NCBI GenBank assembly: GCA_015491705.1 | Contig: WFVK01000229.1 | Span: 1 to 16,768 of the forward strand | Length of the DNA stretch: 16,768 nucleotides | Reading direction: 5' to 3' | Origin: Nitrospirota bacterium | GTDB lineage: Bacteria; Nitrospirota; Thermodesulfovibrionia; UBA6902 | Part shown: piece by piece, positions 1-16,768 of the stretch | Numbering within the stretch: the first letter of the stretch is position 1 | Layout: the number at the start of each line of letters is the position of its first letter | The notes under the pieces: generated by a model | The model's database searches: none | Told to the model about the DNA's origin: nothing | What the model saw: only the letters and a program-made list of their open reading frames with translations | Translations under genes and position numbers: made by a program

Positions 1-115
1 CAGTCACTGAAGACTGCCTGAGCCACTGGCCGGAGAGGCCGGGAAGGCGGGCGAGTAGGATGCAATGCCGTGAGGTGTTGCAATGACCTGAGCCGGAAGA
101 CCTGTCCGGGCCGGA
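1..115 (+). promoter_or_regulatory. Cobalamin riboswitch, 3' portion (5' end outside window)
   Basis: This is the downstream part of an adenosylcobalamin-type riboswitch. GCCACTG (22-28) and GGGAAGGC (41-48) are the conserved core blocks. AGCCGGAAGACCTG (91-104) matches the B12 box, whose consensus resembles AGYCAGGAGACCTGCC. Two local stems support a folded RNA: GGCC 28-31 pairs with 37-40, and GCAATGCC 62-69 pairs with GGTGTTGC 74-81 (with G-U pairs) around a GTGA tetraloop. The upstream conserved blocks lie before the window, so the fold cannot be completed. Between the B12 box and the start codon there is no GC stem followed by a T run, so translational control at the first gene's ribosome site is more likely than transcription termination. 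That last point is inference. Confidence 0.88.
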
Positions 116-153
116 TTCTTAAATCAAAAAAATTTCTCGAGGGAGGAAAAGAA
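116..153 (+). promoter_or_regulatory. Leader between riboswitch and btuB, with Shine-Dalgarno GGGAGG
   Basis: This is a short A-rich leader. GGGAGG at 141-146 lies seven bases before ATG 154, a strong ribosome site that fixes the btuB start. The open frame extends upstream through the riboswitch to 70, but those codons are RNA-element sequence and not protein. No promoter is visible; it would lie upstream of the window. Confidence 0.7.
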
Positions 154-2166: not shown

Positions 2167-2167
2167 C

Positions 2168-3850
2168 GTGATACTCTTTGAAAACATCTCTTTCAAATAT
2201 GCCGGGCGTACCGGGAGGTCTGTGCACGCTGTCTCCTTTTCCGTGCCGGAGGGGCAGTGCGTGCTCGTCACAGGCCGGACAGGCTGCGGCAAGAGCACGC
2301 TGCTTAAGATGCTCGGCGGCATAATCCCTCATGAGAGCGCAGGCAGGATGGAGGGCAGGGTGACCGTCAACGGTATGGACACACGCCGCTCTTCCCTGCC
2401 CCTGATTGCACAGTCTGTGGGGATGGTCTTCCAGAGCCCGGATGACCAGTTGTTTTGCACCACAGTGAGGGACGAACTCTCATTCGGCCCTGAAAACCTG
2501 GGCCTCCCGCATGAAGAGATTGATAAAAGGGTGAGGGAGGCGCTTTCACTGGTCGGGCTTGAGGGGTTTGAGGACAGGCGGATACAGAGGCTTTCAGGGG
2601 GCCAGAAACAGCGCATTGCCATAGCCTCACAGCTTGCAATGAAACCCGTTGTCATGGCCCTTGACGAACCTGTCAGCCAGCTCGACCCGGCGGGCACGCA
2701 GGAAATAGTAAGGTGCCTCCGCGGCCTTAAGCGGAAAGGCATCACCATTGTCATGGTGGAACACAGGATTGACGATGTAATCGGCATTGCCGACCGCATC
2801 ATGGTAATGGACTCCGGTAGGATCGTGCTTGATACAGACAGGACAGAACTTTCCCGCCATGTGGAGACTTTTAAAAACCTCGGTCTCAGGGTCCCTGATG
2901 CCCTGCGGATTGCAGCCGCGGTCTCTCCTTCACCGCCGGACGACTGGATGCAGGATGTGACGGACGAGGTCATGAAACGGCGGCCTTTTTCAAACGGCCT
3001 GCGTGCCTGCAGTGAGGGGAGTAGCGCCGGCACCGCCAAACGGAAAAGGATAGTCAGCCTGAGGGATGTCTCCTTCTCCTATCACGGCGCAGGGCGGCCC
3101 GCTCTCAGGGGGGTCTCCCTTGATATTTACCGGGACGACATAATCGCGGTTTTAGGGCGGAACGGATCGGGCAAGTCCACCCTCCTGAGTATCCTGTCGG
3201 GGCTGAACCGCCCTGATACAGGGAGTATGGGCATGAGCGGACTCTCGTGTGCGGGCGGGCGGCGGCGCAACGGCAACGGCAATGTGGGGATGGTCTTTCA
3301 GAATCCCGACCTCCAGTTATTTGAAGACAGTGTGCTGGCCGAGTCGGAATTCGGACGGAAGAATCACTGTATTCACCCTGATTCCTGCAAGGAACAGAAC
3401 AGGAGGCTCCTGCGCCTGCTGGGGCTTGAAGGGCTGGAGCATGTGCCCCCTCATGCGCTCTCAAAGGGACAGCGCCTGAGGGTGGCGACAGGGGCGGTGC
3501 TTGCCATGAGACCCGGGCTTCTCATCCTTGATGAGCCGACAACAGGTCAGAACGAGGAAAATATCCGCAACCTGATCTGCACGATCCGGGGAGAGAGCAG
3601 CATAGAGGCGGTTGTCTTCTGCACGCACGATATTGACACGGCAGCGGCTTTCGCGGGGAGGGTGCTGCTCATGAAAGAGGGAAGGATCATTGCAGACGGC
3701 CCGGTCAGGGAGGTGCTCGGCAGTGAAAGGCTTCTTGAAGAGGCGGGTCTCCTGCCTCCCCTGCCCCTGATACTTTCCAGAAAGGCGGGGATTGATCCGC
3801 CTGTGCTCACGGTCGGCGAATTTTTAGGAGTGGTAAATGGAACCGTCTGA
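2168..3850 (+). CDS. ecfA: Fused double ABC ATPase of an ECF-type transporter (EcfA-EcfA')
   Basis: This cytoplasmic energy subunit of 560 residues carries two ABC domains in one chain. Domain 1 has Walker A GRTGCGKST (36-44), Q-loop FQSPDDQ (88-94), signature LSGGQ (142-146), Walker B LDE (165-167) and H-loop His199. Domain 2 has Walker A GRNGSGKST (330-338), FQNPDLQ, a looser signature LSKGQ (431-435), Walker B LDE (D455, E456) and a His in CTHD. The FQxPDxQ loops are typical of ECF/CbiO ATPases. The D-loop of domain 2 reads TGQN where many fused homologues have TGQD, so the two sites may be unequal. GTG 2168 was chosen because it starts at the conserved first strand and sits one base after btuB; GGAG at 2151-2154 is a distant ribosome site. 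The partners EcfT and the S domain are encoded 10 kb downstream in the same operon. Confidence 0.88.
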   Translation: MILFENISFKYAGRTGRSVHAVSFSVPEGQCVLVTGRTGCGKSTLLKMLGGIIPHESAGRMEGRVTVNGMDTRRSSLPLIAQSVGMVFQSPDDQLFCTTVRDELSFGPENLGLPHEEIDKRVREALSLVGLEGFEDRRIQRLSGGQKQRIAIASQLAMKPVVMALDEPVSQLDPAGTQEIVRCLRGLKRKGITIVMVEHRIDDVIGIADRIMVMDSGRIVLDTDRTELSRHVETFKNLGLRVPDALRIAAAVSPSPPDDWMQDVTDEVMKRRPFSNGLRACSEGSSAGTAKRKRIVSLRDVSFSYHGAGRPALRGVSLDIYRDDIIAVLGRNGSGKSTLLSILSGLNRPDTGSMGMSGLSCAGGRRRNGNGNVGMVFQNPDLQLFEDSVLAESEFGRKNHCIHPDSCKEQNRRLLRLLGLEGLEHVPPHALSKGQRLRVATGAVLAMRPGLLILDEPTTGQNEENIRNLICTIRGESSIEAVVFCTHDIDTAAAFAGRVLLMKEGRIIADGPVREVLGSERLLEEAGLLPPLPLILSRKAGIDPPVLTVGEFLGVVNGTV

Positions 3851-5894
3851 AAACAGGCTGCCGGAAGAGGCTCTTCCCTACCCGTTTTCTGCAATAGTAG
3901 GGCAGGAAGAGATGAAGCTCGCCCTCGTCCTGAACGCAATAGAGCCCCGTATCGGCGGTGTGCTTCTCAGGGGTGAAAAAGGCACTGCCAAATCAACGGC
4001 GGTCAGGGCGCTGAGGAGGCTTTTGCCCGGGATAAAGGCAGTGGCTGGATGTCCTTACTCATGTGACCCTGACGACCATGCCCGGTTGTGTCCGGCATGT
4101 GCGGAGATGATCGGCTCCGGCAGGCATCCCCGTACTGCATACATAAGAATTCCTTTTGTCAATCTCCCGTTGAATGCAACAGAGGAGATGGTCACCGGGG
4201 GCATGGATATGGAGTTTGCTCTCAGCACGGGCCGGAGACGGTTTCAGCCGGGACTCCTTGCCAGGGCAAACAGGGGAATCCTCTACATCGACGAGGTCAA
4301 CCTGATGGATGACCATATAGTGGATATTATACTTGATGCGGCATCCGGCGGGACCAATGTAGCAGAAAGGGAAGGCATTTCCCGCCGTCATCCATCCTGC
4401 TTTATACTCACAGGCACCATGAACCCGGAAGAAGGGGATCTCCGCCCCCAGTTGCTCGACCGCTTCGGACTCTGCGTGGAGGTCACGGGTGAGAAGGATA
4501 TAGAGAGGCGGGTCGGGCTTATGGAGATGAGAGAGCTTTATGACGGTAATCCGGCCGGGTTTCTTCCTGTTTACCTCAGGAAAGACAGGGAGGTCTCGGC
4601 ACGGATAATCAGGGCGCGCCGGGCAATCCGTGAAGTGGTGTTCCCCGGCCGCCTGTCGGGCCTTGTCTCAGAGCTCTGCCTGCAGAACAACGTGGCGGGA
4701 CACCGGGCTGACATTGTTATCAGATACGCAGCCACCGCGCTTGCAGCATTTGAATGCCGCACAGAGGTAACGGCCCGCGACATAACCAGGGTGGCGGGTA
4801 TGGCGCTCGCGCACCGCAGGAGGGATGCCCTTCCACCGCCTCCGGCAGCCGGCAATCCTGAGGTGAAAGAAAATGATACCGGGAACAAAAAGGACAGCGG
4901 CGGCAGGGAAGAAGATAATGCGGGCAACCGGCCTGGAAACAGCGGCACGGATCAAAAGGATAAACCGGACAATATGGCGGAGGAGTTTCCTGCAGCCCTG
5001 CACGGTACCGGAAAACCTGCGGAGACAGCCGGGGACCCCGAGCCTTCTGAAGAGGTGTTTGAGCCGGCCGGCACATTCAAGGTACGCGGATTCAGGCAGG
5101 TGAAGGACCGCCTTCTCCGCCGCGGCCCGGGCAGGCGCTCCAGGACAAGGACAGCACAGAAGACAGGCAGGTATATAAAGAGTATACACAGCAGCAGGTA
5201 CCCTGAGATAGCGCTTGATGCCACCATCAGGGCCGCGGCGCCCTACCAGCGCCACAGAAAAAAAGAGGACGGTATGGCGGTCAGCATCCGCAGTGATGAA
5301 ATCCGGAGAAAGGTGAGGGAAAAGCGGATAGGAAGTTTCCTGCTCTTTTTGGTTGATGCCAGCGGCTCAATGGGGGTAAAGGCACGGATGGCGGCCACAA
5401 AGGGGGCAATACTCTCCCTGCTCATGGACGCCTACCAGAAGAGGGACAGGGTCGCGATGGTGACGTTCAGGCGTAAAGAGGCTGTTGTCAGTCTTCCGCC
5501 CACTTCCTCTGTTGAGCTTGCCGCAAGGTATCTGAGGGAGATGCCGGTGGGAGGCCGCACCCCCCTGGCGGACGGGCTTCTCAGGGGTTTCAAGCTGCTG
5601 AAGGCGCATCTCCTGAAGGAACCATCCGCCCGTCCGGTGGCAATAATCGTTACGGACGGAAGGGCGAACGTCTCCGCGGGCAGCGGCATTGCACCGCGTG
5701 ATGAGGCGCTCGTTATCGCTGAAAGAATGGCGCATGAGGAAAGGATAAAGTTTGTGGTGGTGGACACGGAAGAGCCGGGGATAATAAAGTTCGGATTTGC
5801 AGCAGGGCTTGCCGCTGCACTGGAGGCGGAATACTTCCGCACCGAAGACCTGCGGGCAGGCGACCTTGTGGATATAGTGAGGAGGAGATTATAA
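3837..5894 (+). CDS. chlD: ChlD/BchD-like chelatase subunit: AAA+ domain, acidic linker, VWA domain
   Basis: This 685-residue AAA+/VWA protein is predicted to power metal insertion by the CobN subunit. It resembles the putative cobaltochelatase subunit family found in genomes that have cobN but no cobS/cobT. The AAA+ domain spans about 12-330, with Walker [10 protein letters not shown] (46-54), four cysteines C72, C76, C85 and C88 spaced like a zinc site, Walker B with D152 and E153, and the [19 protein letters not shown] segment. A low-complexity Glu/Lys/Asn/Gly linker covers about 335-415. The VWA domain has a MIDAS: D507-x-S509-x-S511, T575 and D607. ATG 3837 follows TAGGAG (3825-3830) and overlaps the ATPase gene by 14 bases. 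It is paralogous to the next gene over the AAA+ part. A magnesium chelatase role cannot be excluded from this gene alone, but no bchH or other chlorophyll gene is seen. Confidence 0.86.
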   Translation: MEPSENRLPEEALPYPFSAIVGQEEMKLALVLNAIEPRIGGVLLRGEKGTAKSTAVRALRRLLPGIKAVAGCPYSCDPDDHARLCPACAEMIGSGRHPRTAYIRIPFVNLPLNATEEMVTGGMDMEFALSTGRRRFQPGLLARANRGILYIDEVNLMDDHIVDIILDAASGGTNVAEREGISRRHPSCFILTGTMNPEEGDLRPQLLDRFGLCVEVTGEKDIERRVGLMEMRELYDGNPAGFLPVYLRKDREVSARIIRARRAIREVVFPGRLSGLVSELCLQNNVAGHRADIVIRYAATALAAFECRTEVTARDITRVAGMALAHRRRDALPPPPAAGNPEVKENDTGNKKDSGGREEDNAGNRPGNSGTDQKDKPDNMAEEFPAALHGTGKPAETAGDPEPSEEVFEPAGTFKVRGFRQVKDRLLRRGPGRRSRTRTAQKTGRYIKSIHSSRYPEIALDATIRAAAPYQRHRKKEDGMAVSIRSDEIRRKVREKRIGSFLLFLVDASGSMGVKARMAATKGAILSLLMDAYQKRDRVAMVTFRRKEAVVSLPPTSSVELAARYLREMPVGGRTPLADGLLRGFKLLKAHLLKEPSARPVAIIVTDGRANVSAGSGIAPRDEALVIAERMAHEERIKFVVVDTEEPGIIKFGFAAGLAAALEAEYFRTEDLRAGDLVDIVRRRL

Positions 5895-6929
5895 ATGGAG
5901 GGAAGAGCTGTCTATCCGTTTTCAGCAATAGTCGGACAGGAAAAGATGAAGCTTGCGCTCATTCTGAATATCATTGATCCCCGTATATCGGGTGTGCTCA
6001 TACGTGGTGAAAAGGGCACCGCAAAGTCAACGGCGGTCAGGGCCCTGGCGGACATACTGCCAGTGATTGAAGTGGTGAACGGCTGCCCGTTTCAGCTATT
6101 GCCGGGCGACGGTCCGGGAGTGTGCCGGCACTGCGCCAACAGGGAGTGCAGTGAACGGGTTGCAGCAGGGAAGCCCCCCGAGGTTATAAGGCGGAAGGTC
6201 AGGGTGGTGGGGCTGCCCGTGGGGGCCACGGAAGACCGTGTGGTAGGCACAATGGACCTGGAACATGCACTGAAAAAGGGAGAGAAACGGTTTGAACCGG
6301 GCATCCTTGCGGCAGCACACAGGGGGATTCTCTATGTGGACGAGATCAATCTTTTAGATGACCATGTGGTGGACGTACTGCTTGACTCTGCCGCCATGGG
6401 TGTAAATACAGTGGAGCGTGAGGGTGTTTCTTTCTCCCATCCCGCCCGTTTTACGCTGGTGGGGACAATGAACCCCGAGGAGGGTGAACTCAGGCCACAG
6501 CTCCTTGACAGGTTCGGCCTGTGCGTTGGTATTGAAGGTATCCGGAGCAGTTCCGAGAGGGTGGAGGTGATGGAGAGGCGAATCGCCTTTGAAGACGACC
6601 CTGAAGGCTTCTGCCTGAAATGGGAAGAGGAGTCCCGCAGGACAACAGACCGTATCGGGCAGGCAGTAAGCCTGTGTCCACGCGTGAAGGCCGCAAGGGA
6701 GAGGCTGTTCAGCATAGCAAACCGCTGCGTGGAGGCAGGCGTTGACGGCCACAGGGCGGATGTTATCACACTGAAGACCGCGAGGGCACTTGCCGCATGG
6801 AACGGACGGAGCGAGGTGACGGAGGAGGACATAGATATTGCAGCGCAACTCGCCCTGCCGCACCGGATGAGGCGCCTGCCTTTTGAGGAGATAGGGAAAC
6901 CGGAGAAGCGCATCAGGGGGGGACTCTGA
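5895..6929 (+). CDS. chlI: ChlI/BchI-like AAA+ chelatase subunit
   Basis: This 344-residue AAA+ ATPase probably forms the motor ring with the preceding ChlD-like protein and acts on CobN. Walker [10 protein letters not shown] is at 38-46 and Walker B has D149 and E150 ([10 protein letters not shown]). [19 protein letters not shown] is present, followed by the helical C-terminal ChlI lid (GVDGHRADV). It carries cysteines C64, C77, C80 and C85 in the same insert as the paralogue but spaced differently. The start ATG directly follows the previous stop, and AGGAGGAG at 5880-5887 is its ribosome site. Protein and DNA similarity to the first 1 kb of the upstream gene are both high around the P-loop, indicating tandem duplication or gene conversion. 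Length is normal for the family. It ends by overlapping the next start by one base (TGATG). Confidence 0.88.
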
Positions 6930-7948
6930 TGGCCGTCATGAACACCGCATTCCTTGTACTCATGCTTACCGGCAGGTGCAACCTGCGCTGCCGCTACTGC
7001 TATGTTGATGCAGGCGCTGACGGCATAGACATGTCCGGGGAAACCGCATTCAGGGCCATCGACCTGTTTGTGCCTGACACCGGCGCCGTAACTGTCGAAC
7101 TGTCAGGCGGGGAACCGCTGCTCCGCTTCGACCTGATAAGGAAAATCGTTGAATATGCCGGCGCTGTCAATCCCGGCGTCCGTTTTGCCATACAGACAAA
7201 CGGCACACTCCTTGATCCGGCCAAACTGCGGTATCTCTGGACACAGCGCATAGGAACAGGGCTCAGCATGGACGGAATCCCGGATGTAAACGAGAGTCTG
7301 CGCGGGGGTTCTGCCGGTGTACTCAGGGCGCTCAGGCTTATGGAAGAGTCGGGGACCGGGGTTAATATCACCGTGGTATTGACAAGGGAAAATATCGGGA
7401 AGCTGCCGCAATTTCTCCTTTTTTGCGCGGGGTTTTCCTGTGTGAGGGTGATAAACCTCGACATCCTGCGCCCGCTGGGCCGTGCCGTAAACAGCGGGCT
7501 TGTACCTGAAAAGGGTCAGATTACAGACATGGTTGACGGTATGTTCGCAATACTTTCATTTATTAATGAGAGGCGTTTCCCGCCGCTGAAGATAAGGGAG
7601 ATTGCACAGGCAAAGAGGCGAAGGAATGACAAGGAGATAAAACCCTATTGCCATGGAGCCGCAGGAGATGCAGTTGCGGTAACCCCTGACGGCAGGCTGT
7701 TTCCATGTGCCTCACTCATGGATATGGATCAATACCAGGCAGGAACCGTATGGTCCCCTGATCTTTCACGGCTTCAGGGGCTGGTACAGACACCTCTATA
7801 TCCTGAAAAATGCATGAGCTGTGAGCTGAGACCGGTCTGCCGCGGCGGGTGCCCCTCCCGCAGGGTTTCTATCGCAGGGGACATAAAAGATATCTGTGAT
7901 GTTGAATGCCATATGCGGAAAGAGATATGGAGGAGGATCGCGGAATGA
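6929..7948 (+). CDS. Radical SAM protein with SPASM-type C-terminal iron-sulfur domain
   Basis: This 339-residue radical SAM enzyme would generate a 5'-deoxyadenosyl radical; its substrate is unknown. The SAM-cluster motif C17-x3-C21-x2-C24 lies in GRCNLRCRYCYVD, and SGGEPLLR is the GGE motif. The C-terminal region has a SPASM arrangement with C241, C260 (after VTPDGRLFP), C295, C298, C304, C308 (GGC), C323 and C327, enough for two auxiliary 4Fe-4S clusters. Such proteins often modify peptides, but no candidate precursor peptide is visible next to it. It sits between chlI and cobN with a one-base overlap upstream and a four-base ATGA overlap downstream, so a role linked to the tetrapyrrole or the chelatase is a reasonable inference. 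No specific function is assigned. Confidence 0.85.
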   Translation: MAVMNTAFLVLMLTGRCNLRCRYCYVDAGADGIDMSGETAFRAIDLFVPDTGAVTVELSGGEPLLRFDLIRKIVEYAGAVNPGVRFAIQTNGTLLDPAKLRYLWTQRIGTGLSMDGIPDVNESLRGGSAGVLRALRLMEESGTGVNITVVLTRENIGKLPQFLLFCAGFSCVRVINLDILRPLGRAVNSGLVPEKGQITDMVDGMFAILSFINERRFPPLKIREIAQAKRRRNDKEIKPYCHGAAGDAVAVTPDGRLFPCASLMDMDQYQAGTVWSPDLSRLQGLVQTPLYPEKCMSCELRPVCRGGCPSRRVSIAGDIKDICDVECHMRKEIWRRIAE

Positions 7949-10323
7949 AAAAGATAAAGACAGTCGTAATTAATGCCACCGGCACGGGGATGATAAGCAT
8001 GGCCGGTGCATTCCGCCGGATAGAACAGGAATATCCCGGTTGTATGGAACTGCATGCACGGACAAATGATGACCTGTTTGACTCAAAGATGATGGAGCGT
8101 TTTATCCCCCGCCTTCAGGCGGCGGACTGTGTAATCGTGATACTCCACGGCGGCAGGAAATCGTTCAGGTTTTTTGACCGGCTGATTGAGGCATCGCGGA
8201 ATGCCGTGGTGTTCATCCAGCCCGGGGATGAGGACGAGACGTCCCTCTCTGCAAGATATTCCACGGAATACGGCAGTGATTACTTTAATGAGATGGCGCG
8301 GTTTATCAGGTTCGGAGGCAGGGATAACTGGACGAATCTCCTCAGGAGCCTGATAAGAAGATTCTCGGGAGAGCACATCCCCTATGACCCGCCGCAGAAG
8401 ATGCCATGCGAGGGAATCTACCATCCCCGGACAGGGGTGTCAGCGACGCTTGATGAATACCTCGACACACAGGGCGCCTCCCTGAAAGAGCTTGAAGACA
8501 AAAGTATTCCCGTCATAGGTGCGTGGTTTTATCAGGGCTATTATGTAGACGGCAACCTGGAGTTTGTGGACAGCCTTGTCAATGAGATCGAGAGGCAGGG
8601 TGGCTTCCCCGTTGCATGCTTTTATAACCGTTTCCCTGACAGGATTCTGAACAACAGGGACCCCGGCTGGGTGGTGGAGAATTTCTTTCAGGCGGATGGG
8701 AAGACGATTATCCACGTGCTGCTGAGCTGCATGGTCTTTTCAATGAGGCTCACCCTCCCGCAGTACGGCGGAGTTTATGAAAAACTCGGCGTGCCCGTTC
8801 TCCAGGCTATTACACTGTTTACGACCCGCCGGGACTGGGAAGAGACGAAACGGGGGGCTTCGCCCATGGATGTCTGCATAAGCGCAGCACAGCCCGAGTT
8901 TGACGGTATCCTCATTACCCTCCCTGTCTCGACAAGGGATGCGGCGGAACAGGACATGCTTACAGGAGCGACGCTGATGAGGAATATGCCCGTGGAGGAA
9001 CGTATAAGAAAGATCGTGGGCCTTGCACGGAAATGGGCCATGCTCGGTATAAAACCGAATGCTGAAAAGAGGGTGGCTGTCATCCTTCACAACTACCCCC
9101 CGCGCAATGACCGCATCGGATGCGCTGCAGGGCTTGACTCCTTTGAGAGCGTGAAAAACATTCTCGGGAGGCTGAAGGAGGAAGGGTATTCCCTTGAACG
9201 GGATTATGCATCAGGCGATGACCTTGCACGCGAGATACTTGATGGGGTTACCGCCGAGACGCGATGGCTCACCCCCGAGAGGATGGCGCGGAAGGCGGTC
9301 GACCGTATAGGGCCTGAGCAATACAGGGCATGGCATGAAAGCCTCCCCGGGAAGAACCGGCGGCATATGACAGACGACTGGGGCGACATACCCGGCGGGC
9401 TCTTTGTCCATGAAGACGAGGTTGTGGTCAACGGCGTTGTCAACGGTAATGTATACATAGGAATCCAGCCGCCGAGGGGCTTTGTTGAGCAGCCGGAAAA
9501 GATACACGACCCGCATCTTGCGCCGGGGCACCATTACATATTCCATTACAGGTGGATAAGGGATGTTTTTAAGGCGGACGCAGTACTGCATATCGGCAAG
9601 CACGGCTCCCTCGAGTGGCTGCCGGGGAAATCACTGGCGCTTTCACAGGAGTGCTATCCGGACATTTCCATCATGGACCTGCCGAATATCTATCCCTATA
9701 TCATCAATGATCCCGGAGAGGGAACCCAGGCAAAGCGCCGCTCCTATGCCTGTGTGGTCGACCACCTTATCCCTGTTATGACAAATGCCGACAGGTACGA
9801 GGAACTGGCAGAGGTGGATACAAAAATACTCGAGTACATCCAGACAAAGTCAATGAACCCTGAAAGACTGCCCGTGCTTCAAAAGGAGATATGGCAACTG
9901 GCCGCAACACACAATCTTCATTCGGATATTGAGGCCTCTGAGGATGAGGCACTTTCAGACTTTGACGCTTTTGTGGAGAGGCTGCACTCCTACCTCTCCG
10001 AGGTGGCGGATACCGCCATCAATGACGGCCTCCACATAATGGGGATTGTGCCCGGGGGAGAAAGACTTGCAGAGCTTGTCACGCAACTGGTGCGGATCAA
10101 AAACGGGGATGTACCATCCCTGAGAGAGGCAATTGCAAGGCAGTGGGGATACGATTACGACAATCTCCTTCAATACAGGGGACAGGCAGACCCCACAGGC
10201 CGGTTCCCCACAAATGCCGTTGCAGTAACAGAGATACACAGGGCCGCCCTTGAAATAGTGATGGATGTGATAGAGGGGGAGAGACCCTTGTTGCGGATGA
10301 GAGCCCGGAGGTGCGCAGAGTGA
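7945..10323 (+). CDS. cobN: CobN-type chelatase large subunit, N-terminal two thirds
   Basis: This 792-residue open frame covers the N-terminal and central part of a CobN/ChlH-family chelatase, the subunit that binds the corrin ring and metal. Diagnostic segments are the Rossmann-like start (KTVVINATGTGM), HNYPPRNDRIGCAAGLDS, and the metal-site region with H549 and H553 in HIGKHGSLEWLPGK, followed by DLPNIYPYIINDPGEGTQAKRR. ATG 7945 overlaps the radical SAM stop by four bases, and GGAGGAGGA at 7929-7937 is its ribosome site. The frame stops at 10321-10323 while the family continues for about 450 more residues, which are found in the next frame. The last residues (LLRMRARRCAE) do not look like the family. 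In the -1 frame, from the G5 run at 10275-10279, the sequence reads GGETLVADESPEVRRV and leads straight into the C-terminal part. This gene is therefore either naturally split or carries a one-base frameshift. Confidence 0.88.
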   Translation: MKKIKTVVINATGTGMISMAGAFRRIEQEYPGCMELHARTNDDLFDSKMMERFIPRLQAADCVIVILHGGRKSFRFFDRLIEASRNAVVFIQPGDEDETSLSARYSTEYGSDYFNEMARFIRFGGRDNWTNLLRSLIRRFSGEHIPYDPPQKMPCEGIYHPRTGVSATLDEYLDTQGASLKELEDKSIPVIGAWFYQGYYVDGNLEFVDSLVNEIERQGGFPVACFYNRFPDRILNNRDPGWVVENFFQADGKTIIHVLLSCMVFSMRLTLPQYGGVYEKLGVPVLQAITLFTTRRDWEETKRGASPMDVCISAAQPEFDGILITLPVSTRDAAEQDMLTGATLMRNMPVEERIRKIVGLARKWAMLGIKPNAEKRVAVILHNYPPRNDRIGCAAGLDSFESVKNILGRLKEEGYSLERDYASGDDLAREILDGVTAETRWLTPERMARKAVDRIGPEQYRAWHESLPGKNRRHMTDDWGDIPGGLFVHEDEVVVNGVVNGNVYIGIQPPRGFVEQPEKIHDPHLAPGHHYIFHYRWIRDVFKADAVLHIGKHGSLEWLPGKSLALSQECYPDISIMDLPNIYPYIINDPGEGTQAKRRSYACVVDHLIPVMTNADRYEELAEVDTKILEYIQTKSMNPERLPVLQKEIWQLAATHNLHSDIEASEDEALSDFDAFVERLHSYLSEVADTAINDGLHIMGIVPGGERLAELVTQLVRIKNGDVPSLREAIARQWGYDYDNLLQYRGQADPTGRFPTNAVAVTEIHRAALEIVMDVIEGERPLLRMRARRCAE
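10307..10311 (+). promoter_or_regulatory. Ribosome binding site that decides the cobN C-part start
   Basis: GGAGG lies eight bases before GTG 10320. That GTG overlaps the stop of the N-part (GTGA), the usual layout for coupled re-initiation. The alternative GTG at 10311 begins inside this site and is less likely. Confidence 0.5.
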
Positions 10324-11681
10324 CGGAGTTTATAAGGGATATCGTGCTGCCAAAACTGGCACAGACCACAGGGGAGATAGATTCAGTGGCTGCCGCCCTG
10401 TCAGGAAGGCATGTCCTTCCCGGCGGCAGCGGCGCCCCTACCCGCGGGATGGTGGACATCCTGCCCACAGGAAGGAATTTCTTCTCGGTTGACCCCTTCA
10501 GGATACCGTCCCCCACTGCATGGGCCACGGGGAAGGCGCTTGGAGACGCACTTGTCGAGAGACATATAAATGAGACCGGCAGGCCTCCTGAAAGCATCGG
10601 CATGGTTATATGGGGCAGCCCCACAATGCGCACAATGGGTGAGGACATTGCAGAGGCGTTCTACCTTATGGGTGTTAAGCCGGTATGGAACAGCAGGAAC
10701 GGGCGTATAGAGGGGCTTGAGGTCATACCTGCCGGGGAATTGAAATTCCCGAGGGTGGATGTGACGTTCAGGACATCGGGCTTTTTCAGGGATTCATTCC
10801 CCAACCTGATGGAACTCCTGGACGAGGCCGCGGCAATGGTGACTGCCCTCGACGAGCCCGTTGAGAAGAATTTCCTGAGAAAACACGTGCTGACAGAGGC
10901 GGAAGAGCTTGTCAGGCGCGGCATTGATCCTGAAGAGGCCCTGCGTGAGGCATCATTCCGTGTCTTCAGCGACCCGCCGGGGGTCTACGGCGCAGGCATA
11001 GCCGCGGCGATTGATGCAAAGGCATGGGAGAAGAGCGAGGATCTCGGGGAGGTATATATTGCCTGGGGCGGCTATGCCTACGGCAAAGGGGTATATGGAG
11101 AAGACATGAGGGATGCCTTCCGCAGGAGACTGTCGGACATCAGCCTTGTGGTGAAAAACGAGGACTCAAGGGAATATGATCTGTTTTCCTCGGATGACTT
11201 CAATGCCTACTTCGGCGGTTTTGTCGCAGCCGTAAAGGCGGTATCCGGGAGTTATCCACGGGCATATTCAGGAGACGCCTCCGACCCTGACAGGGTTAAA
11301 TACCGCAACCTTCAGCAGGAGACAAAGCATATCTTCCGCTCCAGGATTCTCAATCCCAAATGGATGGAGGGACTAATGCGCCACGGTTACAAGGGCGCGG
11401 GAGATCTCTCAAGGGCAGTGGATATCTCGTTCCACTGGGATGCCACCTCTGACGTGATGGAGGACTGGATGTATGATGCCCTGTCTGAAAAATATGCGCT
11501 GGATGAGAAGATGCAGAAGTGGTTCAGGGAGGTAAACCCCCATGCCCTGCAGAACATCACCGAGCGGCTGCTGGAGGCAGTCAGCCGAGGGATGTGGAAT
11601 GCCTCCGGGGAAATGAAAAAGAGGCTTGAGGATGCATATCTCGATATAGAGGGGGATGTTGAGGAGAGGACCGATGCCTGA
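10320..11681 (+). CDS. cobN: CobN-type chelatase large subunit, C-terminal third
   Basis: This 453-residue frame completes CobN. Conserved segments are SGAPTRG (37-43), ILPTGRNFFSVDP (from 47), IPSPTAW, MVIWGSPTMRTMGEDIAEAFYLMGV, the VTFRTSGFFRDSFPNL block, and the C-terminal NPHALQNITERLLEA-x-SRGMW. Together with the preceding part the total is about 1245 residues, normal for CobN, and no conserved block is missing. Start GTG 10320 is chosen for its GGAGG site and four-base overlap. If the split is a frameshift, there is no separate start here. Recoding, a real mutation and an assembly error in a G run are all possible. The end overlaps the next gene by eight bases. Confidence 0.87.
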   Translation: MTEFIRDIVLPKLAQTTGEIDSVAAALSGRHVLPGGSGAPTRGMVDILPTGRNFFSVDPFRIPSPTAWATGKALGDALVERHINETGRPPESIGMVIWGSPTMRTMGEDIAEAFYLMGVKPVWNSRNGRIEGLEVIPAGELKFPRVDVTFRTSGFFRDSFPNLMELLDEAAAMVTALDEPVEKNFLRKHVLTEAEELVRRGIDPEEALREASFRVFSDPPGVYGAGIAAAIDAKAWEKSEDLGEVYIAWGGYAYGKGVYGEDMRDAFRRRLSDISLVVKNEDSREYDLFSSDDFNAYFGGFVAAVKAVSGSYPRAYSGDASDPDRVKYRNLQQETKHIFRSRILNPKWMEGLMRHGYKGAGDLSRAVDISFHWDATSDVMEDWMYDALSEKYALDEKMQKWFREVNPHALQNITERLLEAVSRGMWNASGEMKKRLEDAYLDIEGDVEERTDA

Positions 11682-13596
11682 TCTGCCGGGGTTGAAGCCC
11701 CTGAGATACCCCGGCGCACAGGGCTTTCACTCAACTACAACCCCAAAAAGTCTGACAACTTTTCGGGGACCCCTGTTCTCGACAGGCATTCTGCCTGTCT
11801 CCGAGGTTTTCGCTTTCAGCGAAAAAAACCGTTCAGGCCCTGCACCCCGGGGTATCTCATCATTCAGGTGCTTGAGCCTTTTTTTCTTCCTGCTGGCACT
11901 GCTTGTTCTTGTTCAGGGGTGCTCAAGGGAGCAGGCCGGCGGTCAGGTGTATTTTGTACGTGACGGACTTGCCGTGGAGCTGGCCGGGCTTAAGATGGTT
12001 ACAGTCCGCTCAAAAGGGAGAGAGGTTTTCAGATGGCTGAAGGGCGAAGGGGTTGAAGGAGCGGTGCTTTTTGCAAACAGGAAACTGCTCCTTCCCCTTG
12101 AATGGAGCCCGGGCATGGAATACAGCGTGGATGCCCGCGGCAAAGATTCAAGGTTTACAGGCAGGCTCACTGCCCCGCTTAAGCCTTCGCCCATGCCGAT
12201 TTACAGTGTGGAACTGGAAGAGGTCGTACCCTTCAGCATTGACGAGGGGGCGGCGCCCGATACATTCGTGAAGTTCTCCGGCGACGGCGAATACCTTGCA
12301 ATCGGCAGCTTCCACGGCTATCTCAGGGTAGTGGACATGACAACGGGTAAGGTCATCTTCTCAAAGAAGATCGCCGAGGGTATGGTCAAGCGTATCGGAT
12401 GGGGGGAGATAGCCGGCCGAAGGGTTCTCTATGTCGGGGAGCAGTCGCCCGACGGCTATATCTACTGTCTTGATGCAATGACAGGCAGGGAGATATGGAA
12501 GTACCGCCTGGCCGACGACATTGAGACATCAAGGCCGGAGAGGGAAAATGACCGTTATGCAATATATAAATTCCCGGGCGTCTACCAGTTAAAGGTGCTT
12601 CCTGCCGGGGATGTGGTTGTAGCCGGCACGCACGGATGGGACACTGAAGGTAAAAGGCGTTACAGGTCTCTGGTCTACCGGTTTGACGGCGGGACCGGCA
12701 GGATAAAGTGGCGGTGGCCGTCAGACAGGACCCTCCCTTACGGCCTCACCTGGTTTGACATGTCAGCCGCAGGTGAGAAGCTTCTGCTCCTGACATCGAC
12801 ATGGCGCCCCCCCGGACAGAAGGATTCGCTATATGAAAACGGCGCCCTCTACTGCCTCAGCGGAGACAGCGGAACATTGCTCTGGGAGTACAAGGTGCCT
12901 CCCCTGAAGCCGTATTACAGGAGCGCCACTGCGTGGCAGGGAGTCGCGCTCTCTGCGGACGGCAGGTATGCGGCAGTCGGGCTCAATGACGGCAGGGGAA
13001 TGTTCTTCGATACAGAAAGAGCCGTAAAGACAGGGGGCAGGAGATTTCCGCGGAACAGCCCCGTGTGGGTGAAGGAAATCGGCACACCGGTGCTTATAGG
13101 GGACATACCCGTCTCATCTCCTGTAAGTTATGCCGCGGTCGGCAGGGAAGAGGTCTACTTTGTCCTGCCCGGCACATCCATACCCTCCGGCGCGGTAAAA
13201 GGCAAGGTGCAGAAACCGGCGCCCCATCCCGCTGCCGGACAGCTTTATGCCTTTGGTTTTGACGGCAGGCTGAGGTGGAAGTGGAAGTCTTACGGCTCCA
13301 TGCAGGGCATCTATCTCTCCGGGAACAAGAGGTGGCTCTTCACCGTCAATGCCCTTGCCGGGATGGCGGGCTCCCGCAGGGGCGGACCGGCGTCACCCTT
13401 TGGAGTCACGCTCTTTGATACATCGGGCAGGCCGGCGGAAACAGGCAAACCGGTCTATCTCTATCCCACTGAAGGTCCTGTATTTTTTATGGCCGATATC
13501 TCTGAAGACGGCAGGTACATTGCGCTCGTGGAAGTGCCGTTTGCCGACGAAAAAGGCATACAGAAGGGAAGCTACCGGGTGCATATAATCCACTGA
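11674..13596 (+). CDS. Lipoprotein with PQQ/WD-like beta-propeller, leader carrying a palindromic insertion
   Basis: This is a 640-residue predicted lipoprotein. A hydrophobic segment ends in lipobox VQGC with Cys83 as the lipidation site. An N-terminal module of about 75 residues (from V92) resembles the one in the next gene. Then come repeats of PQQ/WD-like propeller blades, with signatures such as TGREIWKYR, TGRIKWRWP, SGTLLWEYK and DGRLRWKWK. It would sit in the periplasm, anchored to a membrane. Function is not recognised; context suggests a role in substrate delivery to the ECF transporter. ATG 11674 follows GAGGAGAGG (11661-11669) and overlaps cobN by eight bases. Residues 10-62 are encoded by an inverted-repeat element that keeps the frame open. 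Removing 11703-11858 would leave a normal signal with the lipobox Cys at position 31. A start after the element (TTG 11872) has only a poor ribosome site. Confidence 0.78.
   Translation: MPDLPGLKPLRYPGAQGFHSTTTPKSLTTFRGPLFSTGILPVSEVFAFSEKNRSGPAPRGISSFRCLSLFFFLLALLVLVQGCSREQAGGQVYFVRDGLAVELAGLKMVTVRSKGREVFRWLKGEGVEGAVLFANRKLLLPLEWSPGMEYSVDARGKDSRFTGRLTAPLKPSPMPIYSVELEEVVPFSIDEGAAPDTFVKFSGDGEYLAIGSFHGYLRVVDMTTGKVIFSKKIAEGMVKRIGWGEIAGRRVLYVGEQSPDGYIYCLDAMTGREIWKYRLADDIETSRPERENDRYAIYKFPGVYQLKVLPAGDVVVAGTHGWDTEGKRRYRSLVYRFDGGTGRIKWRWPSDRTLPYGLTWFDMSAAGEKLLLLTSTWRPPGQKDSLYENGALYCLSGDSGTLLWEYKVPPLKPYYRSATAWQGVALSADGRYAAVGLNDGRGMFFDTERAVKTGGRRFPRNSPVWVKEIGTPVLIGDIPVSSPVSYAAVGREEVYFVLPGTSIPSGAVKGKVQKPAPHPAAGQLYAFGFDGRLRWKWKSYGSMQGIYLSGNKRWLFTVNALAGMAGSRRGGPASPFGVTLFDTSGRPAETGKPVYLYPTEGPVFFMADISEDGRYIALVEVPFADEKGIQKGSYRVHIIH
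11702..11859. repeat. MITE-like palindromic element in the lipoprotein leader
   Basis: Arms 11702-11724 and 11837-11859 are inverted copies matching at 20 of 23 positions (TGAGATACCCCGG against CCGGGGTATCTCA at the ends). Two perfect hairpins lie inside: GACAGGCA-TTC-TGCCTGTC (11781-11799) and TTTTCGCT-TTC-AGCGAAAA (11807-11825). The element has no gene of its own. It resembles small non-autonomous or REP-like elements in architecture, but no other copy is in this window, so family membership cannot be judged. Its insertion leaves the surrounding frame open. Confidence 0.72.
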
Positions 13597-15527
13597 TGAG
13601 AAAGGGCGGGGTATTTTTCATGGCAGGCATTATTCTTGTACTGGTTGCAGGCACGGGCGTTACCGCATGGTACTTTTCCGCCCCGCGCGGAGCCCTGCGC
13701 GGGGCAGATGTGAAGTTTGTCCCTGACGGTGCATTTCTTACCCTGCCTTACCCAGCAAGGGTCAGAAATGTCAAGGTCGAGGGAAGGGATGGTGTGATAC
13801 TCTCACGCCGCAGCGGCGGTGTAAAAAAGGAGAGACTGTGGCTTGTGTTTGACTGGGAGGGCGGAAGGGATTATACCTTCACGGTCTCCACTGATGAGGG
13901 GGATACAGTGATTGAAAAAACCTCCCCCGCCAATGACTACACTGCCGCCGTACAGTTCTCTGTGCCGTTCACATCAATGGCGGAGTTGACGTCCCCCGCG
14001 ATATTCGGGAAGGAAACCGCGGCATCGACTACGGCGATCGAAAACAACGAGCTTACATCAGCCCTGATTGTCACTGCCTACCGGCAGGGTGAAAGCACGG
14101 TCACAGGCACGGTCACAATCCCCTCAGGAATAGAGGTCACGGCATATCCGCAGGACCGGGAAACCAGAATAACCTACGGGGAAAAAGAGACTGTCATACA
14201 CTTCAGGACGACACTCTCCGTTGCCTACGGGAGATTTTACATGCCGCTGCGTATACGTATGCCGCGTGAAGGCGAGTATCGCCTCCATGCGGCGGTTGCC
14301 TTTAAAAGGGCAGGCGGCAGGGAGTCTTTCTTCAGCAGGACTGTAACCGTTAAAGTCGTCACGCAGGAATCCCTGGCCGCTGCAATAAGGCTTCTCAGGA
14401 TATCAATGCCAGCCGGCATTCAGGGGATGGCCCTCCGGCAGTATGCAGCGGACACGCTCTACATACAGCCGGCTGTATTTAAAAGACTCGGCCGTTTCTT
14501 CGGCGTTGAGCCGGAGTATATTGACTACAATCATCCCTTTACATACCAGGGCCTTGTCCTGGAAAACACCGGGACCGGCAGCATCGCCCTGCTCATTAAT
14601 TCCGCTGTATATTACACTGACCGTAACATCACGCCCCCGGCATTCATACCGCCCGACTCAGCAACAGGCGGGATAAAAGACGGGACGGTCACCGTGACAG
14701 CGGTGCTGCCGCCCGGAGAAAAAACGGCGGTGGTGATGCCTGTTTATCTGACGTCCGACCCCCTGCCCGGAGAGTACCGCAGGGTTTTAAAACTCATCCC
14801 CATGGGTTCGGCCCTCCCTGTTGCAGAATATGAGTTTCCCTTCCATGTCACATCCATGAACCTGACTGCATGGACATTCACCCTGATTGCAGTATTCCTG
14901 AGCCTGACCGCCACACTGGTCTTTATCATTAGGTTCAGAAAGATAGTGGCGCGCATGAAGGTGAGGTGGCTGGTGATTATCTCACTGTACGGGGCCATGA
15001 CCTTTGTGGTATCAAATGTCCCTGTGCGCATATTCGGATCATTTCTTTCGGCGGTGGCAGGCCCTTTCAGTGTATTTTTTACAGGTTTTTTCTCTGCGCT
15101 GCTCTACTGGACCCTGCTCGTCTCCCTTGTGAGACTCCTTCCACGGCCGGGCACCGTCACGTTTGCGACACTTGTCCGTTACATGCTGAACGGCATCATG
15201 TTCGGCGGCTTCCAGCTGGCGGATATACTCTTTACAGGCACGGGTATTGTTGCAAAGGAGGCGGCATTTTACGTCTCCGGCCTCACGCGCAGGGGAGAGG
15301 GTTTCAGGTGGAGCAGGTGGTCCGTCCTTTACCTTGCGCTATGCCTCTCCATTGCGGATGCATTTATCACCCTGACAGGGCTATACCTGCATATGGTCCT
15401 GTACAGGCTCTATTTTGCCGGCTGGTATATCACCCTGAACGTCGTCATCAACAGCCTGGTTTATACCTTTGCGGCAACCTTCAGCGGCCGGCGGTTCAGC
15501 GACAGGCTGAAATGGGAGGATGGATAG
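13596..15527 (+). CDS. Membrane protein: large extracytoplasmic region fused to a probable ECF S-component domain
   Basis: This protein has 643 residues. An N-terminal signal anchor (about 6-27) is followed by about 390 extracytoplasmic residues rich in beta strands and Thr/Val, of Ig-like appearance. A membrane segment lies at about 424-446, a basic stretch (RFRKIVARMKVRW) follows, and residues 455-643 contain about five or six hydrophobic helices. The last 189 residues match S components of ECF transporters in size and hydrophobic pattern, and ecfT follows two bases later. The metal-type CbiM/NikM start MHIxDG is absent, so this is not a standard cobalt S component; a corrinoid S component is the simplest inference. 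The start overlaps the previous stop by one base (TGATG) and has only a weak ribosome site. ATG 13620 with GGGCGGGG upstream is an alternative but would lose the positive n-region. The S-domain call needs a profile or structure match. Confidence 0.65.
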   Translation: MRKGGVFFMAGIILVLVAGTGVTAWYFSAPRGALRGADVKFVPDGAFLTLPYPARVRNVKVEGRDGVILSRRSGGVKKERLWLVFDWEGGRDYTFTVSTDEGDTVIEKTSPANDYTAAVQFSVPFTSMAELTSPAIFGKETAASTTAIENNELTSALIVTAYRQGESTVTGTVTIPSGIEVTAYPQDRETRITYGEKETVIHFRTTLSVAYGRFYMPLRIRMPREGEYRLHAAVAFKRAGGRESFFSRTVTVKVVTQESLAAAIRLLRISMPAGIQGMALRQYAADTLYIQPAVFKRLGRFFGVEPEYIDYNHPFTYQGLVLENTGTGSIALLINSAVYYTDRNITPPAFIPPDSATGGIKDGTVTVTAVLPPGEKTAVVMPVYLTSDPLPGEYRRVLKLIPMGSALPVAEYEFPFHVTSMNLTAWTFTLIAVFLSLTATLVFIIRFRKIVARMKVRWLVIISLYGAMTFVVSNVPVRIFGSFLSAVAGPFSVFFTGFFSALLYWTLLVSLVRLLPRPGTVTFATLVRYMLNGIMFGGFQLADILFTGTGIVAKEAAFYVSGLTRRGEGFRWSRWSVLYLALCLSIADAFITLTGLYLHMVLYRLYFAGWYITLNVVINSLVYTFAATFSGRRFSDRLKWEDG

Positions 15528-15529
15528 GG

Positions 15530-16426
15530 ATGATTTACGGGACCGGCGGTTTCAGCGGGGCGGGAGGAAGACACGGCGTCCTTGCGCGTCTTGACCCGCG
15601 AGTCAAGATACTCTGCCTGCTCTGCATATCGGTCTTTTCCGTGATACTCGAAAACACGGTCTCTCTTCTCGTGCTCTTTTCCCTGTCATGGATACTCGTG
15701 GCCGTTGAGCGGATGCAATGGCGCAACGTGCGGATGCTGCTCCTTCTTGTCGGCCTGACGGTATGGGGCACGATGTTCTCACAGTCCGTCTTTTACTTTG
15801 AAGAGCCGAGGACCGTGCTCGTCAATATTGTAAGTGCGGACACCCCTCTGATCGGCAGGTGGACAGGCGATATAAATATCTACCGCGAGGGATTCCGTTA
15901 CGGTGCCGTACAGTCACTGCGGTTTGCATCGATGATGGTCTATGGATTCATCTTCTGCTGGAGCACGGACAGCGGCAAGATGCTCTCAGGCATGGTGCAG
16001 TTAAAGGTCCCGTATGTGATTGCATTTATGACCGTGACCGCGCTCAGGTTTATTCCGGCGATAATGGACGAGGTCGCCACCGTCTCCCTTGCCATGCGCA
16101 TGAGGGGCAGGAGGGTGCTCTCCCCCAATCCGGTGAGGCTGGCCGGAAACTGGCTGAAACTGATACGGCCCGTGTTTATCAACTGCTACAGGAGGTCGAA
16201 TATACTTTCACTCTCAATTCAGTCAAGGGCTTTTCAGCCTTCGGCTGCCCGCTCAACTGCCGAAATCCGGCAGCTTGGGAAGGGAGAAAAGGTGCTTCTC
16301 TCCATTGTCCTTCTGAGCACAACAGTCCTTGTGCTGCTGAAGATACTTTATGGTCTTTATCTCTGGGATGTTCTTTACGTATCACGGTTACGGGGGATCT
16401 ACGAGATCTCCAGATTATATCTGTAA
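15530..16426 (+). CDS. ecfT: EcfT transmembrane subunit of an ECF transporter
   Basis: This 298-residue integral membrane subunit couples the ATPases to the S component. LDPRVKILCL near the N-terminus is the family DPRxK motif. Hydrophobic helices follow. The cytoplasmic coupling region contains AMRMRGRR and, further on, SLSIQSRAF, corresponding to the two Ala-Arg-Gly-like coupling motifs of EcfT/CbiQ proteins. A last hydrophobic helix lies near the C-terminus (LSIVLLSTTVLVLLKILYG). ATG 15530 is chosen because GGAGG at 15515-15519 precedes it and because the open frame further upstream only runs inside the previous gene. It follows the S-domain gene after two bases. The segment after the second coupling motif is encoded by a run of small hairpins. 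Confidence 0.88.
   Translation: MIYGTGGFSGAGGRHGVLARLDPRVKILCLLCISVFSVILENTVSLLVLFSLSWILVAVERMQWRNVRMLLLLVGLTVWGTMFSQSVFYFEEPRTVLVNIVSADTPLIGRWTGDINIYREGFRYGAVQSLRFASMMVYGFIFCWSTDSGKMLSGMVQLKVPYVIAFMTVTALRFIPAIMDEVATVSLAMRMRGRRVLSPNPVRLAGNWLKLIRPVFINCYRRSNILSLSIQSRAFQPSAARSTAEIRQLGKGEKVLLSIVLLSTTVLVLLKILYGLYLWDVLYVSRLRGIYEISRLYL
16227..16273. repeat. Cluster of small hairpins inside ecfT
   Basis: Overlapping stems GGCT-TTTC-AGCC (16228-16239) and CAGCC-TTC-GGCTG (16235-16247) are followed by CTGCCG-AAATC-CGGCAG (16257-16273). They lie just after the codons of the second coupling motif. They may be remnants of a palindromic insertion or chance structure in GC-rich coding DNA. Confidence 0.35.
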
Positions 16427-16427
16427 T

Positions 16428-16434
16428 GGAGGAG
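16428..16434 (+). promoter_or_regulatory. Ribosome binding site for the cbiZ gene
   Basis: GGAGGAG sits just before ATG 16438. The in-frame ATG at 16426 overlaps the ecfT stop (TAATG) but lacks a ribosome site of its own, so 16438 is preferred. Confidence 0.5.
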
Positions 16435-16437
16435 TAT

Positions 16438-16768
16438 ATGCTTTTGGAAAAGTTTTATGATGCAATCGAGGTCCACAGGGAGGAGAAGATTATCTATGTC
16501 AGGTTTTTGTCTCCCCACAGGGTTATATCCACCTGCCGTCTGGATGGCGGACTCAGGGATGACCTGGAGTATATCTATAACCACCAGGCGTGTGAACCCG
16601 CGGGACACTCCCGTGAATCACACGGGAGGATGAGCTCTGATCCGGCCGGATACCGTAAGTCTGTATGTGAGCGGTACGGGCTTCCGCCTGAAAAGAGTGC
16701 TTCCCTTGGTACGGCTGCAAATATGAATAATGCAGCCATAGTGTCTGAAAAGTTCCGTGATTTAGAGG
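16438..16768 (+). CDS. cbiZ: CbiZ-type adenosylcobinamide amidohydrolase (partial, runs off window)
   Basis: The first 110 residues of an open frame continue past the window end. RVISTCRLDGGLRDDLEYI-x-NHQ and, later, SLGTAANMNNAAIVSEKF match the family pattern in which an STxxxxGG block, NHQ and TAANM...A recur. CbiZ proteins cut the amide bond that holds the aminopropanol linker in adenosylcobinamide or adenosyl-pseudocobalamin, so that the corrin ring can be rebuilt with another lower ligand. The gene follows ecfT by 11 bases in the same operon. It fits a salvage role together with the riboswitch, receptor and transporter. The catalytic half and the true length cannot be seen, so activity is not assessed. 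Confidence 0.8.
   Translation, partial: MLLEKFYDAIEVHREEKIIYVRFLSPHRVISTCRLDGGLRDDLEYIYNHQACEPAGHSRESHGRMSSDPAGYRKSVCERYGLPPEKSASLGTAANMNNAAIVSEKFRDLE

Follow-up and report, generated by a model that had tools for sequence, protein, structure and literature searches.

Described relatives and the locus under study

Energy-coupling factor (ECF) importers are usually regarded as working without a soluble binding protein. In this study, we analyzed a 16,768-nucleotide stretch of DNA from a Nitrospirota bacterium (assembly GCA_015491705.1, contig WFVK01000229.1, positions 1 to 16,768; hereafter the window), in which a gene at 13596..15527 encodes a protein of 643 amino acids that joins a probable substrate-binding (S) component to an N-terminal extracytoplasmic region (hereafter the S protein). 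All features of the window described below lie, like this gene, on the forward (+) strand, and the published work is cited from excerpts of the papers named.

Profile-profile comparison identifies YkoE (PF09819), the S component of the group I thiamine importer YkoEDC, as a homologue of the S domain. The S protein differs from YkoE in being longer by about 450 residues at its N-terminus, which include a periplasmic region and an additional helix, in having the ligand residues E77 and Q95 replaced, in giving no match to PF09819, and in lying in a cobalamin operon. The cobalt and nickel ECF importers (CbiMN, NikMN, and NikKMLQO) have S components that match the S-domain model structurally, and their N, K, and L components have extracytoplasmic parts. 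In such importers, the N, K, and L proteins are additional, separate components (PMC2667541), whereas the extra part of the S protein is large and belongs to the same chain, and no CbiM profile match is found. Both cobalamin and cobinamide are substrates of the ECF S component CbrT (PMC5997447). The substrate class of this and other known B12 S components or transporters (ECF-CbrT, BtuM) is presumably the same as that of the S protein; however, the S-domain profile has no sequence match to CbrT, and the excerpt of PMC5997447 mentions no outer domain for it. Operon-2 of Dehalobacter restrictus combines a cobalamin riboswitch, CobN, chelatase subunits, CbiZ, and a corrinoid transporter and is strongly induced by corrinoid starvation (PMC4285132), and a similar cluster with TonB receptors in Chlorobium has been suggested to serve cobalt insertion into imported corrinoids (PMC8620254). 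CobN, chelatase subunits, CbiZ, and corrinoid transport genes are likewise found in the operon of the window, in which the inner-membrane importer is an ECF module rather than the BtuCDF/FepBCD type of Dehalobacter and Chlorobium.

We conclude, with a probability of roughly three in four, that corrinoids (cobalamin, cobinamide, or other B12 relatives) are imported by a dedicated (group I) ECF system in which the S protein is the substrate-binding S subunit. The computed basis consists of the S-component fold at residues 453-643, the helix and outer region in the same chain, the co-location with EcfA-EcfA and EcfT, the riboswitch, the receptor, and CbiZ. The substrate is read as a corrinoid because a cobalamin riboswitch stands at the operon start and the operon holds a BtuB-like receptor and CbiZ.

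The gene and its C-terminal S domain

The open reading frame (ORF) proposed in the preliminary description of this DNA was confirmed on the forward strand with an ATG start. Eight further proteins, 633-643 residues long, can be aligned with almost all of it at 64-83% identity, the C-terminal part being the best conserved, and the matches in carrier genomes are free of internal stops; therefore, the ORF is a real gene. Packing is tight, the ATG overlapping the stop codon of the preceding lipoprotein gene by one base. The ecfT gene that had been described as its neighbor indeed follows, starting either at 15512, within the last codons of the S gene, or at 15530, 2 bases past its stop.

Residues 453-643 (14952..15524) adopt an S-component fold in an AlphaFold2 model with a pLDDT of 90.2 and structural matches in the Protein Data Bank (PDB). 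The preliminary description had placed an S-like unit at residues 455-643, and the structural alignment starts it at about residue 453 (model residue 36); its assignment as an S component is supported by this fold and by profile similarity to YkoE. Comparison of the predicted structure with known S components, as had been suggested there, gave no unlike fold, and an unrelated membrane protein was rejected as the identity of the domain on the same grounds. The profile search of the whole protein, suggested as well, found no Pfam family up to E 1 and no NCBIfam model, and PADLOC returned nothing usable.

The similarity to YkoE was obtained by aligning an S-domain profile with a five-member YkoE family in hhalign (88%, E 3.2e-6, score 44.5 against a shuffle maximum of 19.0). 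The natural controls, few in number, scored 12.8 for EcfT, 15.6 for an EcfT-like protein, 23.4 for AI-2E, 21.6 for a RibU-like protein, and 13.7-15.0 for three single sequences; control alignments of FecCD, CbiM, and CbiQ were set aside because some of their rows had been cut too short. The profile comprised 29 of the 42 rows of alignment A6, after rows at least 90% identical were dropped. A6 itself consisted of the piece from the window and 41 of the 77 proteins returned, leaving out P0016 (an apparent chimera), P0025, P0076, and P0078 (truncated or shifted), and many near-duplicates. YkoE was the only family recovered by profile-profile comparison, and its signal appeared only when this deeper S profile was set against the five-member family: a 15-row profile (A3) gave nothing significant when aligned with YkoE or four other S components as single sequences, and matched no PDB chain by sequence up to E 10, the solved ECF-CbrT included. 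The ECF-CbrT entry, 6fnp, was absent from the 50 structural matches listed for the S-domain model, which excludes no likeness to the CbrT fold. The S protein had no match to the YkoE model PF09819 up to E 1, one of 42 family members matching at E 0.13, and none to the CbiM/NikM model PF01891.

Ligand pocket

Thiamine is bound in YkoE by W49, E77, Q95, D131, and Y46 (PMC5037267). We mapped the columns of E77, Q95, W49, and Y46 by hand onto the 29 S-domain sequences and five YkoE sequences. The E77 column holds N, S, A, or G in the S-domain sequences and E in all five YkoE sequences; the Q95 column holds S, Y, G, N, R, A, or T in the former and Q in all five of the latter, and neither column contains E or Q in any of the 29. 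In the columns mapped to W49 and Y46, where the alignment is gapped, no W and no Y occur, and the Y46 position also varies among the five YkoE sequences. Column 505, near the gapped W49 region, is aromatic (Y, W, or F) in 26 of the 29. One Glu is invariant in both sets (E100 of YkoE, E555 of the S protein), and a PG turn is retained (P in 25 and G in 28 of the 29). Among the 22 columns tabulated, G489, P490, G497, E555, R604, W610, and Y623 are identical in every S-domain sequence. The S domain is thus related to YkoE and, with both E77 and Q95 replaced, probably binds a different ligand.

N-terminal segment, outer region, and extra helix

A hydropathy scan of the S protein (window of 19, peak threshold 1.2) gave one peak at residues 6-24, a second at 427-445, and further peaks from about residue 450 up to the C-terminus, with none between 24 and 427. 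The first peak (13611..13667, hydropathy 2.3) bears out the signal anchor of the preliminary description, and the second its additional membrane helix ahead of the S domain. This helix, TM0, spans about residues 423-446 (14862..14933) by hydropathy and the S-domain model, and is followed by a K/R-rich loop. The loop (residues 446-458) has six K/R and no acidic residue, and no K/R occurs at residues 410-422 before TM0; this charge pattern supports an orientation of TM0 from outside to inside. The charges flanking the signal anchor are indecisive, with two K/R before it and three after.

Between these segments lies the extracytoplasmic region, residues 31-420 (13686..14855), predicted at low confidence to consist mainly of strands. 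Of the roughly 390-residue beta-rich region described before, the long soluble stretch stood, in that it contains no hydropathy peak. The strand-richness of residues 38-415 is weakly supported, since its sole basis is a poor full-length AlphaFold2 model (nine close sequences, pLDDT 43) that gives a mere hint of strands. The outer domain matched no solute-binding-protein family of Pfam (Peripla_BP_2 and others) and no Pfam family at all up to E 1. A PDB profile search with the whole S-protein family returned one chance match (E 1.5), and a match of the S protein to type I asparaginase (E 0.19) was likewise dismissed as chance.

Operon of the window

The window opens with the 3' part of a cobalamin riboswitch (RF00174, 1..123, cut by the window start; cmscan 34.7 bits, gathering cut-off 31.5, 5' truncated). 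A BtuB-like TonB-dependent receptor follows (70..2166; Pfam Plug and TonB_dep_Rec), with an ORF that opens at GTG 70 and a likely start, by reading, at ATG 154 with a signal peptide after it. Its best PDB match is BtuB (E 5e-35), and it scores 243.7 bits against TIGR01779, under the cut-off of 599.7. The fused two-domain ECF ATPase, EcfA-EcfA (2147..3850), matches TIGR04520 (411 bits, cut-off 315) and TIGR04521 (397 bits, cut-off 330) in two stretches each, and aligns with YkoD at 232 bits. EcfT, the CbiQ-family transmembrane component (15512..16426; PF02361, 100.6 bits, cut-off 25), matches the EcfT chains of solved ECF complexes at E 2e-10, and its adjacency to the S gene, with EcfA-EcfA in the same operon, is the group I arrangement. 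The start of CbiZ, adenosylcobinamide amidohydrolase, is cut by the window end (16501..16768; PF01955, 57.7 bits over 79 positions at 16501-16767); a complete CbiZ gene in L006 scores 208 bits.

Chelatase genes occupy the middle of the operon. The ChlD/cobaltochelatase-type AAA+VWA subunit (3837..5894) scores 753 bits against TIGR02442, just under its cut-off of 779, and the ChlI-type AAA subunit (5895..6929) 490 bits against the same model and 437 bits against TIGR02030 (cut-off 467). A radical SAM protein (6929..7948; PF04055, 67 bits) precedes a CobN-like chelatase, which is interrupted: the N-terminal ORF (7906..10323) covers positions 2-656 of PF02514, and the C-terminal ORF in another frame (10311..11681) positions 677-1089. 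L006, L007, and L013 encode CobN in a single ORF (1245-1258 residues); the split at 7906-11681 in the window reflects either an assembly error or a recent disruption.

A beta-propeller lipoprotein (11656..13596, true start uncertain; PF13360, 44 bits, cut-off 27.6) has, by reading, a lipobox-like ...LVLVQGC. BtuG is a B12-binding surface propeller of Bacteroides. Conserved just 5' of the S gene, the lipoprotein is a possible counterpart of BtuG, which was not found among the 60 of 66 matches listed from its PDB sequence search.

Operon across carriers and other ECF parts

Six distinct genomes of the phylum carry the S protein (3 of 37 in the family sample and 5 of 395 in the phylum sample, two being common to both), and four of them are recorded under the names Nitrospirae, Deferribacteres, or only 'Bacterium'. 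Where contigs reach, the order is receptor, EcfA-EcfA, ChlD, ChlI, radical SAM, CobN, lipoprotein, S, EcfT, CbiZ, TonB, and ExbB; in G012, a separate contig holds the last three. The lipoprotein gene is present in all six operons. The radical SAM gene between ChlI and CobN is present in five and missing from L013 (17434-17480); the system can therefore do without it. A cobalamin riboswitch lies directly 5' of the receptor gene in all five testable carriers (partly in the window, and in L051, L052, L053, and L054); G012 was excluded from this count, its contig ending short of the position. In L053, where two receptor genes follow one another, and in L054, the receptor is a distant paralogue (27-36% across the longer matched stretches). 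CbiZ was found in 4 of the 37 family-sample genomes, among them all three with the S protein; the two genes being linked, this co-occurrence reflects operon consistency and not independent evidence. In G019, in which no S protein was found, the CbiZ match (L049) lies within a 719-codon open frame.

The preliminary description had reasoned that a second S component pairing with the same EcfT would speak against its proposal. None was found in the six carriers with the PF12822 and CbiM models: PF12822 matched in none, a search that S components outside these models would escape and in which G000 is 88.67% complete. CbiM occurs once per carrier genome, near a CbiQ of its own in five of six; in G319, the two are on different contigs. 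Each carrier has three CbiQ-family genes, one of them in the S-protein operon. The third, EcfT-like gene (L039-L044) adjoins in all six a gene that reads by eye as an amidase, and no recognizable ECF ATPase pair or S component lies in the 4.7-7 kb read around it; it was therefore rejected as a sign of another S component. In L039, an ABC ATPase reading as sugar-type lies 3.6 kb away from it.

A full-length FecCD/BtuC-type permease is encoded in five of the six carriers. G001 (92% complete) has only a partial FecCD match (28.4 bits), of a kind that the other carriers have in addition. A second cluster (L006, 15819-21372; L046, 4438-8560), preceded in L006 by a riboswitch, contains a CbiK-family protein (Pfam) with a hydrophobic start and, by reading, a PepSY-type protein, an ABC pair, and a BtuC-type permease.

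Relatives of the S protein

Of 8000 candidates scored in a mixed-profile search, at least 63 proteins reached an E-value of 1e-3 or lower; no relative was found in the viral contigs and plasmids searched. Those with names are annotated as hypothetical, and relatives form large clusters (593 member sequences in that of P0026). Phascolarctobacterium, a gut genus, appears in the names of two relatives, P0051 and P0063, and many others belong to the same group of about 552 residues. Among the sequences listed, a signal-peptide-like segment opens each protein of this group whose N-terminus is complete, and a shorter outer region leads on to TM0 and the S domain. In alignment A5, the outer regions of the Nitrospirota and Phascolarctobacterium types are common only near the membrane (about residues 262-420, 14379..14855), and the N-terminal half is confined to the Nitrospirota type. 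The distant relatives P0017, P0021, and P0022 also have soluble sequence ahead of TM0. Several groups thus have the layout of outer region, TM0, and S domain, with the region varying in size. In P0023, a protein of 286 amino acids encoded on a 12.3-kb contig, the outer region is apparently lacking, and a short linker joins a signal-like segment to TM0 and the S domain. P0016, on a 1.4-kb contig, fuses an S-domain relative to a PspA-type N-terminus (PF04012) and is probably a chimeric assembly.

Proposed mechanism and alternative explanations

We propose that low corrinoid would relieve the riboswitch, and that the BtuB-like receptor, energized by TonB/ExbB, would carry a corrinoid into the periplasm. 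In the least certain step, the outer domain, alone or with the beta-propeller lipoprotein, might take the corrinoid and pass it down to the S pocket directly beneath. Once loaded, the S domain would topple onto EcfT, and ATP hydrolysis by EcfA-EcfA would free the corrinoid inside, where CbiZ may remove the nucleotide loop and CobN-ChlID may insert, remove, or exchange the metal. A capturing outer domain has appeal, since a lone S component would have to find its substrate in the periplasm into which the receptor delivers it. By analogy with BtuG, the lipoprotein could be the corrinoid catcher instead. We tentatively suggest, at somewhat less than even odds, that there is a class of ECF importers, in bacteria with an outer membrane, that unites a periplasmic capture domain with a YkoE-like S component in one chain, so that substrate caught outside is handed down to the S pocket of that chain; this would be an undescribed corrinoid importer of Nitrospirota and gut Phascolarctobacterium. 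The preliminary description, which named no substrate, had proposed such a capture domain as a stand-in for a solute-binding protein. Several points keep this step tentative: searches and modeling yielded no fold and no ligand for the outer domain, only its membrane-proximal part aligns with the Phascolarctobacterium-type relatives, and P0023 seems to dispense with it. The N-terminal half limited to the Nitrospirota type with just about residues 262-420 alignable, the composition of P0023, and a separate lipoprotein as a potential substrate binder in every operon, would suit a corrinoid S component whose outer domain binds no substrate and instead gives the lipoprotein or receptor a place to dock, or controls toppling as a lid or anchor. 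We regard this as possible but less likely than not, as the region is long and well kept in close members, which a mere tether would not need.

Other substrates appear less probable. HmuS is a CobN relative. It has been termed a heme de-chelatase, with CobN mentioned alongside (PMC12583661), and this precedent, together with CobN/ChlID and the radical SAM protein in the operon, could be taken to mean that another tetrapyrrole or its metal is the substrate, a metallated tetrapyrrole being imported and CobN acting as de-chelatase, the activity reported for HmuS. The riboswitch, BtuB-like receptor, and CbiZ all indicate corrinoids, and we consider such a substrate unlikely. Still less likely is free cobalt, with a system related to CbiMNQO, the S component of which matches the model: the S protein has no CbiM profile match, each carrier already owns one CbiM, and a free ion would hardly call for CbiZ or an outer-membrane receptor. 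A YkoE-like S component for thiamine or HMP is the most improbable of these readings. YkoE is the sole family found by profile comparison, and a stacking residue may persist, given the aromatic column 505 and the gapped alignment around W49; nevertheless, the columns of E77 and Q95 lack E and Q throughout, and no thiamine gene was recognized in the operon.

Implications

This class of transporter is established; its fused architecture and corrinoid assignment appear to be undescribed. A fusion to a periplasmic domain is not described in the literature searched, in part, on ECF S components, cobalamin, and CobN/CbiZ, most subscription papers lying outside that search. If the proposal is true, a capture domain fused to an S component would merge two logics of ABC importers in one chain. 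The identification of transporters for B12 and its precursors is still an open problem in numerous gut genomes (PMC6593275). Because two relatives are named Phascolarctobacterium, the S-protein family provides a testable candidate for a gut B12 transporter.

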